Source: Actinomycetota bacterium
GTDB taxonomy: Bacteria > Actinomycetota > Acidimicrobiia > IMCC26256 > JACPCJ01
NCBI GenBank assembly: GCA_016179865.1
Contig: JACPCJ010000095.1
Span: forward strand, 1 to 64,000
Reading direction: 5' to 3'
Length of the DNA: 64,000 nucleotides
A model generated the notes under the pieces. That model searched no databases and had not been told where the DNA came from. It saw nothing but the letters and a program-made list of their open reading frames with translations. How positions within the stretch are numbered: the first letter of the stretch is position 1; each line of letters starts with the position of its first letter. Below, piece by piece: positions 5,237 to 9,676 of the stretch. A program made the position numbers and the translations under genes.

Positions 5237-6589
5237 TCACCTGAGATCCACGCCCCGGAGCCGAAGGAGCGAGTCGACGGCGCCCGAGAGCCCGAACCGG
5301 TCGAGGACGCTGCCGTCCCAGCGGCTGACGATGGTCTCGGGGTGGATGTCGAGGCCCAGCTCCAGGTTCCGCTCGGAGATGGAGCGCCCCTCGGCCCTCG
5401 CCGGCTCGCAGACAGGAGGGACGGGGGTGCCGTCGGGGCGGAAGAAGACGAACTCGTCGTCTCTGCGTTCGGCCACGAACCCCCTGGCGTGGACCGAGGT
5501 GTGATGGAAGCGGCACAGCTCCAGAAGGTTCCACAACTCGGTCGGCCCACCCCGAGAGCGCCAGATCACGTGGTGGGCGTCGACCCACTTCGTGTTCGTG
5601 CAGCCGGGGAACCGGCACCCCTGGTCCCGGGCTCGAAGGGCCCGGCGCATCGCCCTCGGAATGGCGGGCGCCTTCTCGCCCGAGTGGACCGGCACCCCGT
5701 CGATCTGGATCACGGGCACGCACGAGCCGTCGCAGAGGAGTCGGTCCAGCGTCTCGGAGGACAGGGCGGTGCCGTTCCCGAGGCAGCCGGCCTCATCCTC
5801 GTCCTCCAGGAGGGCCCGCAGGTCAAGGTGCACGTTCACCAAGAAGCGCTCCGAGAACGAGCGCTCTTCCGCGGAAGAGTCGAGGGCCATCTCGGCCAGG
5901 CGACAGAAGGCGTCGACCATGCGGGCCGACCAGGGGTCGGACGGCGTGTCGGTGGCGTCTTCCGCGGAAGAGTCGATCTCGGAAACGAAGTCGGCGATGG
6001 CCATGGTCTCGGCCACCGATTCGAGGGCAGCCCGGGCCAGGGCCAGGCGCTCGGGAGGCAGGTGGACGACGATGGTGCCCGAGCCGTCGTCGTGCTCGAT
6101 CACGCTGAGCGCCCGTTCGTGGTGGTGCCTGCGGGCCTCCTCTCGCAGGGTGCGCTCCACAGCGGCCACGCCCTTCGTGATGCGCTCGAGCTGGGCCGCG
6201 GTAGAGGCCCGGGCCACGTCAACCAGATCGGATTCGGATTCGGCGGTGGCCACCCGGGTGATGGCCCGCACCTTGGAGTAGGAGAGCTCGCCTGAGAAGA
6301 ACGCCGCCCGGGTGACCGGAAGGTCCGAGAGCGCCCTCGCCACACGCACCCGCTCGTGGGCGGCGGGCATGGAGAGCCCGCAGCGCCAGTTCAGCCAGAC
6401 GGCAGTGGATCGACATCCCCACACCGCGTAGCCCTCTCGGCGGTCGAACTCTCCGATGAGGGCCAGCCAGCGGGCCTCGGCGGCGGCCAAGTGAGCGGCC
6501 AGCTCGGTGATCTCGGCCTCGATGCGCTCCAGCGGGACCGCCTCCAGTACCCCGGGCGACACCCCGGGCTCTACGACAAGCGTGTCCAT
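5237..6589 (-). CDS. DUF222/HNH endonuclease signature protein (13E12-like)
   Basis: C-terminal RDQGCRFPGCTNTKWVDAHHVIWRSRGGPTELWNLLELCRFHHTSVH HNH motif. Confidence 0.85.
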   Translation of the reverse strand: MDTLVVEPGVSPGVLEAVPLERIEAEITELAAHLAAAEARWLALIGEFDRREGYAVWGCRSTAVWLNWRCGLSMPAAHERVRVARALSDLPVTRAAFFSGELSYSKVRAITRVATAESESDLVDVARASTAAQLERITKGVAAVERTLREEARRHHHERALSVIEHDDGSGTIVVHLPPERLALARAALESVAETMAIADFVSEIDSSAEDATDTPSDPWSARMVDAFCRLAEMALDSSAEERSFSERFLVNVHLDLRALLEDEDEAGCLGNGTALSSETLDRLLCDGSCVPVIQIDGVPVHSGEKAPAIPRAMRRALRARDQGCRFPGCTNTKWVDAHHVIWRSRGGPTELWNLLELCRFHHTSVHARGFVAERRDDEFVFFRPDGTPVPPVCEPARAEGRSISERNLELGLDIHPETIVSRWDGSVLDRFGLSGAVDSLLRLRGVDLR

Positions 6590-6708
6590 GGCCTTCTCCT
6601 GTCTTGAATAGAACGAACTGATATACGCTTATTGTAGCTGGCGGGAGTGACACTTGTGCGTCTGGGACCGGGTGAAGGCGTCTTCCGCGGAAGACACGAG
6701 GGGGCTGT

Positions 6709-6915
6709 ATGCTGATCTGCATGCAGAGCACGAGTGTCAGGATCGACGCTGCCACCCACCAGGAGCTCAAGCGCCTCGCAGCCGAGATGAACACGACGGT
6801 GGGCAACACGGTCTCGCTCGCCGTCCGCGCGCTCCGCCAGGACCGCATCGGCGAGGAGTTGAGCGCCCCGTCGGGTGAAGACGAGGGCACCTGGCTCGAT
6901 GCCGACGTCAGGTGA
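6709..6915 (+). CDS. Antitoxin-like protein (RHH/MazE type)
   Basis: STSVRIDAATHQELKRLAAEMNTTVGNTVSLAVRAL; overlaps following MazF-like ORF. Confidence 0.65.
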   Translation: MLICMQSTSVRIDAATHQELKRLAAEMNTTVGNTVSLAVRALRQDRIGEELSAPSGEDEGTWLDADVR

Positions 6916-7240
6916 TGTCGTTGACCTCGAGCTGGGCGTGCCGCAGGGTCGAGAGGCTGGCATTCGCCGCCCCGCGGTCCTGGTGACGGCCCAGCGCATC
7001 CTCGACGCAGGCGCGTCGGTCATTCACGTCGTCCCGCTCACGACGACCATTCGTCGGTTTCACTCGGAGATCGTCATCGAGCCGGATGAGGCCAACGGCC
7101 TCGACGACGTTTCCGCCGCCCAGTGCCAACACCTCAGAGCCGTCTCCCGCGGCCGGATCCTCGAGGTCCGCGGCAATGTTGGCGCCGGCGTGCTGGCGCA
7201 ACTCCGCGAGACGATCGCGGTGATCCTTGATCTGCCGTGA
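6899..7240 (+). CDS. MazF/PemK-like endoribonuclease toxin
   Basis: GIRRPAVLVTAQRILDAGASVIHVVPLTTTIRRFHSEIVIEP...GLDDVSAAQCQHLRAVSRGRI; start ATG 6899 inferred. Confidence 0.75.
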   Translation: MPTSGDVVDLELGVPQGREAGIRRPAVLVTAQRILDAGASVIHVVPLTTTIRRFHSEIVIEPDEANGLDDVSAAQCQHLRAVSRGRILEVRGNVGAGVLAQLRETIAVILDLP

Positions 7241-7649: not shown

Positions 7650-7718
7650 CCTGCGGACCGAAGCCGGGGCCGGGGATGAGGCCGGCCGGCACCCGAGGTC
7701 CTGAGGCGGGATGCAAAC

Positions 7719-7750
7719 GCATACCGTTTTGCTGATCACTATTGGTATGC
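7719..7750. promoter_or_regulatory. Candidate operator of the second TA module
   Basis: Inverted repeat GCATACC-N18-GGTATGC immediately upstream of the antitoxin start at 7759. Confidence 0.4.
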
Positions 7751-7758
7751 TGTTCGGG

Positions 7759-8013
7759 ATGGCTACCGAACAAATCGCAGTCCGGCTGCCCGATGAGCTG
7801 CTGGTCGTGCTCGATGATCTCGTGGCGCGGGGCGTCTACAAGAGCCGAGCTGCCGCCGTCCGCGCCGGGATCGAGGCCGTGTTCGAACTCGATCGCCGTC
7901 GGCGAACGGACAGTGCAGTGGTCGAGGGGTACCGGCGCCTTCCGCCGACGCCAGCCGACCAACAGGCAGCGATCGCGTCGCTGCGAGACGCGATCGTCGA
8001 GGAGCCTTGGTGA
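7759..8013 (+). CDS. RHH (CopG/ParD-like) antitoxin
   Basis: MATEQIAVRLPDELLVVLDDLVARGVYKSRAAAVRAGIEAVFE; start within ORF 7711..8013. Confidence 0.75.
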   Translation: MATEQIAVRLPDELLVVLDDLVARGVYKSRAAAVRAGIEAVFELDRRRRTDSAVVEGYRRLPPTPADQQAAIASLRDAIVEEPW

Positions 8014-8327
8014 CCGATCCCCGTCGTGGAGAGGTGTGGTGGGGTGAGATCGAGGGTGTTGGGCGCCGGCCCTTCCTGGTGATGAGCCGCTCGGCCGCCA
8101 TCCCGGTCCTCAACAGCGTGCTTGCCGCTCCCGTCACGCGAACCATCCGCAACATCCCGACCGAGCTGCGGCTGGGGGCGGACGACGGGATGCCTACCGA
8201 GTGTGCGGCCGGCTTCGACAACCTTCGGGTCGTCCCGAAGGGATACCTCGTCGAACGGCAGTGCGCCCTCGAACCATCCCGGCTCGCCGAGGCATGCCGG
8301 GCGCTCCGGGCTGCGATGGACTGCTGA
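8007..8327 (+). CDS. MazF/PemK-like toxin
   Basis: DPRRGEVWWGEIEGVGRRPFLVMSRSAAIPVLNSVLAAPVTRTIRNIPTE. Confidence 0.88.
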   Translation: MVTDPRRGEVWWGEIEGVGRRPFLVMSRSAAIPVLNSVLAAPVTRTIRNIPTELRLGADDGMPTECAAGFDNLRVVPKGYLVERQCALEPSRLAEACRALRAAMDC

Positions 8328-9029: not shown

Positions 9030-9278
9030 GTGGACGCTGCCGCGAAGGTCACGTCGAAGGGGCAGGTGACGGTCCCGAAGGCAGTTCGTGATGCGCTCGG
9101 CATCAAGGAGGGAGACGAGGTCGTCTTCCGCGTCGAGGGCGATCGGGCTGTTCTGGCTCGTACGCCGGACTTCCTCGATCTGGCGGGCACGATCCGGGTG
9201 CCCGCGGCGAAACGCAACGTGGCCTGGGATGAGGTCATCCGGCGTACGAGGTCCGACCGAGCCTCGGCGCGGCGTTGA
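9030..9278 (+). CDS. AbrB/SpoVT-domain antitoxin
   Basis: AKVTSKGQVTVPKAVRDALGIKEGDEVVFRVEGDRAVLA; Shine-Dalgarno AAGGAGG upstream of GTG 9030. Confidence 0.85.
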   Translation: MDAAAKVTSKGQVTVPKAVRDALGIKEGDEVVFRVEGDRAVLARTPDFLDLAGTIRVPAAKRNVAWDEVIRRTRSDRASARR

Positions 9279-9676
9279 GCGCGTTCATCGACACGAACGT
9301 CCTGGTCCGTCATCTGACAGGCGACCCGCCCGAGATGGGGGCACGGGCGACCGCCTACCTCCGACAGGAGCGGGAGCTGTTGCTCACTGATCTGGTGGCG
9401 GCCGAGACGGTGTACGTCCTGGAGTCGTTCTACGAGGCACCCCGAGCCGATGTCGCCGAAGCGCTGCGCTCGCTGCTCGCCTTCGACTCGATCGTCTGCG
9501 TCGATCCCGCGCTGCTGCTGCGAGCGGCCGAGGTGTACGAAACCGATGGGATCGACTTCGCCGAGGCCTACCTCGTCGCCTGTGCCGAGAGCACCGGGGT
9601 CGGCAACATCGCCTCCTTCGACCGGTCCCTCGATCGCGTCGACACGATCGAGCGGGTCGAGCCGCCGCCGGTCTGA
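9275..9676 (+). CDS. PIN-domain (VapC-like) toxin
   Basis: SAFIDTNVLVRHLTGDPP...DAVFAEAYLVACAE-like C-term (DGIDFAEAYLVACAESTGVGNIASFDRSLDRV). Confidence 0.85.
   Translation: MSAFIDTNVLVRHLTGDPPEMGARATAYLRQERELLLTDLVAAETVYVLESFYEAPRADVAEALRSLLAFDSIVCVDPALLLRAAEVYETDGIDFAEAYLVACAESTGVGNIASFDRSLDRVDTIERVEPPPV

Follow-up and report, generated by a model that had tools for sequence, protein, structure and literature searches.

The parS and NBS sites of ParB and Noc (TGTTTCAC-GTGAAACA, TATTTCCC-GGGAAATA) are perfect palindromes of 14-16 bp, and a few residues at the DNA interface switch specificity (PMC7383237). REP and REPIN elements are dispersed, short, genome-specific palindromes that are matched to the RAYT gene they flank (PMC2817692, PMC3116915). 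The REP13E12 repeats of M. tuberculosis belong to the DUF222/HNH family and are known as a repeated gene (Gordon 1999, cited in PMC10589994). DUF222/HNH genes, REP13E12 included, are numerous in many Actinomycetota and form a family of unknown function.

We compared these systems with a DUF222/HNH gene that carries perfect palindromes inside and upstream of its coding sequence. It lies in a 64,000-nucleotide stretch of DNA from an Actinomycetota bacterium, the whole of which is called the window. The palindrome is very probably, as judged from sequence comparison, the cognate binding site of the HNH protein whose gene carries it. The predicted helix-turn-helix fold of this protein appears to resemble that of ParB and Noc, and the parS and NBS sites resemble a half-site GTTTCCG (PMC7383237). 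Unlike ParB and Noc, the DUF222/HNH protein lacks a match to the CTPase domain and has a C-terminal HNH nuclease instead, its sites lie in and around its own gene, and specificity differs between paralogues. The likeness to REP/RAYT and REPIN systems lies in the dispersed palindromes matched to a gene that they flank, but here the palindromes are perfect and without a loop, the copies are few and the partner is an HNH protein. REP13E12 is likewise a multicopy member of the same family, and LexA-type boxes lie near several family gene starts here; however, open PMC papers yielded no description of a cognate palindrome for REP13E12, nor of the 14-mer or of DUF222 palindromes. McrA and ScoMcrA match in the HNH domain, by sequence profile or fold, but differ in the DNA-binding part.

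The DUF222/HNH gene and its palindromes

The gene and palindrome features in the window are:

5237..6589, minus strand: DUF222/HNH gene, 450 aa, proposed palindrome reader (PF02720 profile)
6326..6406, minus strand: predicted helix-turn-helix codons, residues 62-88 (AF2 models, Foldseek)
6365..6367, minus strand: residue 75 codon, Pro here; tracks the second half-site base, C here
6356..6358, minus strand: residue 78 codon, His here; tracks the first half-site base, T here
5489..5629, minus strand: HNH nuclease motif codons, residues 321-367 (conserved columns among relatives)
5864..5879, no strand: palindrome copy 1, CTCTTCCGCGGAAGAG, in variable loop B of the HNH gene; minus-strand peptide SSAEE
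5958..5971, no strand: palindrome copy 2, TCTTCCGCGGAAGA, in variable loop A of the HNH gene; minus-strand peptide SSAED
6680..6695, no strand: palindrome copy 3, GTCTTCCGCGGAAGAC, in a divergent intergenic gap; recurrent HNH-gene upstream position

As the earlier note had reported, the exact 14-mer TCTTCCGCGGAAGA is present three times (5865-5878, 5958-5971 and 6681-6694), and nothing else in the window comes even within 2 mismatches of it. Copies 1 (5864-5879) and 3 (6680-6695) extend to perfect 16-bp palindromes, and copy 2 does not extend. Copies 1 and 2 do lie inside the DUF222/HNH coding sequence, where they encode SSAEE and SSAED, and copy 3 occupies the gap between the divergent HNH gene and the first antitoxin gene. 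It is ~90-105 bp away from the HNH start and ~15 bp away from the antitoxin ATG, upstream of both. An operator of the neighbouring toxin-antitoxin module was set aside as an explanation, since the upstream site recurs at HNH genes elsewhere. The neighbours beside the HNH gene (6709-7240, 7711-8327 and 9275-9676) are toxin-antitoxin-like genes, comprising two antitoxin and PemK/MazF-like pairs and one PIN-domain-like ORF; the profile search covered the first PemK.

The window protein matches PF02720 (DUF222) with an E-value of 9e-24 and 84.8 bits (curated cut-off 24.4). Its N-terminus is a helical domain and its C-terminus is HNH, and a ParB CTPase domain gave no Pfam match in this protein. The HH...N...HH motif and zinc cysteines of the predicted HNH nuclease are intact; among relatives, R321, C325, P328, G348, H362, H363 and H367 are invariant and H339, H340 and N354 nearly so. 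PF01844 (HNH) is matched by 40 of 43 relatives and, weakly (E 0.07), by the window protein itself, and the C-terminal part matches the HNH domains of McrA and IscB. Residues 1-160 were modelled with AlphaFold2 at a mean pLDDT of 95, and the predicted fold of the N-terminal domain appears to resemble the ParB/Noc DNA-binding domain. All 24 best PDB matches obtained with Foldseek are ParB, Noc or Spo0J, with a TM of up to 0.63 against the site-bound Noc DNA-binding domain and E-values of 0.26 or worse; PF17762 gave one weak match (E 0.087).

LexA-type boxes (mostly TCGAACATATGTTCGA) were seen near DUF222 gene starts at L025, L039, L041, L142, L242, L249, L250 and L266. Their occurrence at such genes across Actinomycetota suggests SOS control of the family.

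The 14-mer in its own genome and elsewhere

The genome to which the window belongs (G000) is an incomplete metagenome-assembled genome (MAG) of 2.5 Mb in 144 contigs, 70% complete. It contains 8 exact copies of TCTTCCGCGGAAGA, whereas the reversed-letter control gave 0. Chance is excluded, since ~0.006 copies are expected from a composition estimate for this genome. The 14-mer is thus far from abundant genome-wide, abundance unrelated to HNH genes being what the earlier note had named as telling against a special role. Near matches amount to 2 one-mismatch sites and a few two-mismatch sites, followed by background; the one-mismatch copy on contig C30 is probably a chance match, as its frame and gene differ. 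Two paralogous HNH genes, whose DNA is 83% identical, have four of the eight exact copies by inheritance, with the same 93-bp spacing; when the two were compared for synonymous-site constraint, 8/8 codons were identical, a weak signal (p about 0.09). The remaining four copies lie, one each, upstream of the window HNH gene, in a lipoprotein linker, close to the 3' end of a P450 gene and, at the end of recR, within a MITE-like repeat.

Among 394 other genomes of the class, 0 copies of the exact 14-mer were found, and the pattern was therefore generalised to a core with free arms. A scan of 257 Gb of genomes with GACTCTTCCGCGGAAGAS returned 17 loci, and the multi-copy genomes were Actinopolymorpha rutila (22 exact copies), MAG YP4.bin48 (seven) and YB1_3 (two). 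Within YP4.bin48 and YB1_3, the palindrome sits in DUF222 genes, in a variable loop between conserved blocks; a DUF222 gene of MAG 0813_bin15 has a one-mismatch copy in the same place. Genomes picked by the 14-mer were excluded from the clean order and phylum counts given below. Absence of the 14-mer around orthologues had also been proposed as evidence against a link to the HNH gene. The exact string is indeed mostly absent there, but an equivalent palindrome stands in its place, so that a search for the string itself would mislead.

Equivalent palindromes in related genes

One clade of DUF222/HNH genes carries perfect palindromes of the form NNN-YCCGCGGR-N'N'N', in which the core is TCCGCGGA, or in rare cases a variant of it, and the arms are specific to the gene. 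The centre is CCGCGG in most and CCATGG in one, and the arms include GCGTTCC, CGGTTCC, CGTTTCC, GCTTCC, GGTCCC, GGCTCC and GCGTCC, with TCTTCC in the window gene. We found 26 perfect palindromes of at least 16 bp in the DUF222 genes of relatives against ~3.4 expected from codon shuffles, a count that includes genomes chosen with the 14-mer. The sets not chosen in this way gave 14 sites against 0.58 expected for the order, and 18 against 0.49 phylum-wide, the latter set having been fetched after the pattern was seen. Sites exceed both codon-based and dinucleotide-based shuffles. Copies within one gene have the same arms in 29/29 pairs (8.4 in shuffles, maximum 19), and sister genes may differ (CGT in L021, GGT in L022).

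The palindromes recur in particular places: upstream (between about -35 and -150), in loop A (between about +570 and +725), in loop B (window copy 1, L256 and L264) and at the 3' end or shortly after it. Two genes, in G003 and G017, combine sites in three of these places (upstream, loop A and 3'), and a gene in G029 is bracketed by sites. Carriers correspond approximately to one clade (4 label changes against 14.6 shuffled, 0/500) on a tree in which many inner branches are weakly supported; the palindrome is absent in two members of this clade. Relatives thus carry equivalent palindromes, with other arms, in the same places, in line with a site that the HNH protein recognises. This suggestion of the earlier note is strongly supported by these palindromes and by the covariation of the arms with the predicted recognition helix described below, but homing in the strict sense finds no support. 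Intact sites are found inside, upstream and downstream of the gene, and the target is not interrupted by the gene, contrary to a strict homing site.

Plasmids, phages and viral contigs contain almost no close relatives. A phage-labelled metagenome record (MT835797, an unverified phage contig) holds a DUF222 gene with a 22-bp palindrome, AAGCGTTCCCGCGGGAACGCTT (L270, 2207-2229).

Covariation between protein residues and half-sites

Half-sites are written as h1h2h3-TCCG. For h1, the top alignment column is residue 78 (normalised mutual information 0.89, next column 0.39; 0/500 permutations of the column maximum), with Arg accompanying G in 13/13 cases, Gln accompanying C in 3/3 and His or Phe accompanying T in 3/3. 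For h2, the top column is residue 75 (p 0.006), which is Arg in 8/9 genes that have G and is never Arg where h2 is C or T. The two residues are three apart in the second helix of the predicted helix-turn-helix (62-70, 74-87). On the tree, h1 and the class of residue 78 each change six times, and all six changes are joint; of the independent contrasts, only 2 (residue 78) and 1 (residue 75) fall on branches with strong support.

Among genes that did not belong to the training set, L252, L038 and L270 fit at both residues, and L160 agrees at residue 78, its half-site TCT being read from its one-mismatch copy and an exact copy on the same contig. L154, also outside the training set, is an exception, with Thr75 and G, which fits at 78 and misses at 75. 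Further exceptions are L231, a gene with a stop codon that was likewise no part of the training set (Gln78 with GGT; fits at 75, misses at 78), and L023 (Gly75), whose N-terminus is poorly aligned. A. rutila, also outside that set, combines T with Tyr78, a residue found nowhere else. These comparisons suggest that two residues of the HNH protein largely predict the outer site letters in related bacteria. It is the pairing of palindrome and clade, the identity of arms within genes, this covariation and the predicted, apparently ParB/Noc-like fold that make a cognate site very probable.

Three DUF222 clade genes with differing half-sites (L141 GTT, L154 GGT and L160 TCT) are present in one genome, G397, which offers a natural test bed for specificity switching.

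Proposed function and possible autoregulation

We consider it likely that a joint explanation applies, combining a cognate site, dimer binding, self-damping and, speculatively, nicking or cutting behind the dispersed copies. Because of the site symmetry and the predicted fold, a dimer would be expected to bind the palindrome symmetrically in the major groove, like ParB-parS and Noc-NBS. The upstream copy (6680-6695) would damp transcription of the HNH gene itself, and further binding would come from the two copies inside it, where the gene tolerates the encoded Ser-Ala-Glu peptide. More speculatively, the HNH domain might nick or cut at or near bound palindromes and so give rise to a few dispersed copies. 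A wider reading is put forward tentatively: a widespread two-part element of Actinomycetota, in which a ParB/Noc-like reader fused to HNH would recognise a parS-like palindrome, retain copies of it in promoter, loops and 3' end of its own gene and disperse others over the chromosome, the specificities of protein and site co-switching via two recognition-helix residues. A cognate site with a two-residue rule would be the first readable function for the DUF222 family. The family would become testable, as the site is predictable from the protein sequence, and it would provide a natural series in which both DNA-binding specificity and target sites change.

Pure autoregulation is a possible, though doubtful, alternative. 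Here, the palindromes would be operators or roadblocks in their own gene only, HNH catalysis would act elsewhere, and the dispersed copies would be incidental or a small regulon; in a variant, a linked regulator instead of the HNH protein would use the palindrome. In about ten genes a copy precedes the start by 35-150 bp, perfect palindromes and a helix-turn-helix suit a dimeric repressor, and the LexA-type boxes suggest regulated genes. The self-control operator suggested in the earlier note is in keeping with this recurrent upstream position. However, copies are also found in loops and at the 3' end or past it, and the dispersed copies of G010, behind stop codons or between convergent genes, are in positions unusual for operators.

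Dispersed copies

Across 15 genomes with close DUF222 relatives, TTCCGCGGAA occurs 73 times against 21 for the control, an uneven excess of which part, in G038, consists of asymmetric chance matches. The other 42 genomes show no excess (69 against 76). Nearly all matches in G038 and three control genomes are without extended symmetry and represent background. Where dispersed sites are symmetric, they fit the resident gene in G000 and G029, for most of G001 and for 2/3 in G044; in G001 there is also another set, with GGT arms. Of the 13 core matches in G010, 11 have symmetric GGT arms, and these do not fit the single DUF222 gene inspected in that genome. The arrangement typical of REP/RAYT, in which genome-specific palindromes are dispersed around a partner gene, is present. 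RAYT was nevertheless rejected as the partner, as the Y1_Tnp (PF01797) transposase was matched in 0/16 genomes, with 5 control genomes positive.

RAYT transposases spread REPs to new places. A comparable selfish pair, in which cutting by the HNH protein, at palindromes or close to them, is followed by repair that copies them elsewhere, seems rather unlikely here, even though dispersed copies are often gene-matched, the G029 gene is bracketed by sites, Y1 transposase is absent in 16 genomes and the HNH motif is conserved (40/43 match PF01844). Copy numbers are low (5-22), and comparison with homologues of the P450 and of an A. rutila dienelactone hydrolase reveals no additional residues at the palindrome. 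These two coding copies take the place of existing sequence, and clean insertion of a short element was rejected. Orthologous loci of G010 and G022 yielded no clean pair of filled and empty sites. The spreading element suggested in the earlier note thus holds as far as dispersed copies exist, but not as net insertion in the two host proteins or as the work of a RAYT. Autoregulation and nuclease-driven, REP-like dispersal are both compatible with the evidence.

It is improbable that unrelated machinery spreads the repeats and that DUF222 genes are tolerant hot spots. The 22 copies of A. rutila, mostly extragenic and with only one of ~33 DUF222 genes nearby, and the G000 copy within a MITE-like repeat would fit such a process, but it does not predict arm letters that track predicted recognition-helix residues. 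That Ser-Ala-Glu linkers happen to spell TCCGCGGA is scarcely credible, for although all exact coding copies examined (G000, G395, G396) use the SSAE frame and some unrelated lipoproteins encode the string singly, the 14-mer occurs in 0/394 class genomes, the sites exceed codon- and dinucleotide-based shuffles, and upstream and intergenic copies have the same arms, bearing out the earlier argument that coding constraint fails to explain the intergenic copy.

In A. rutila (L107-L126), most of the 22 exact copies lie within GGATTCTTCCGCGGAAGAATCC or a close variant. Many copies there and in G010 come right after stop codons (often 10-100 bp behind them in A. rutila) or between convergent genes, and those of A. 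rutila may double as terminators. One G010 copy (L229, ~1495) forms a hairpin of an apparent RNase P RNA gene, and the G022 orthologue has an imperfect version of the palindrome.

The MITE-like repeats of the own genome are composite inverted repeats with ends GATCCACCGATCTGAG and an inner hairpin TTCTGGAGCAAGT...ACTTGCTCCAGAA, located as follows:

L010, 2850-3250 (C89)
L013, ~1980-2200 (C25)
L170, L174 and L175

One repeat copy appears to replace the normal recR 3' end, and several contigs start in a MITE-like repeat.
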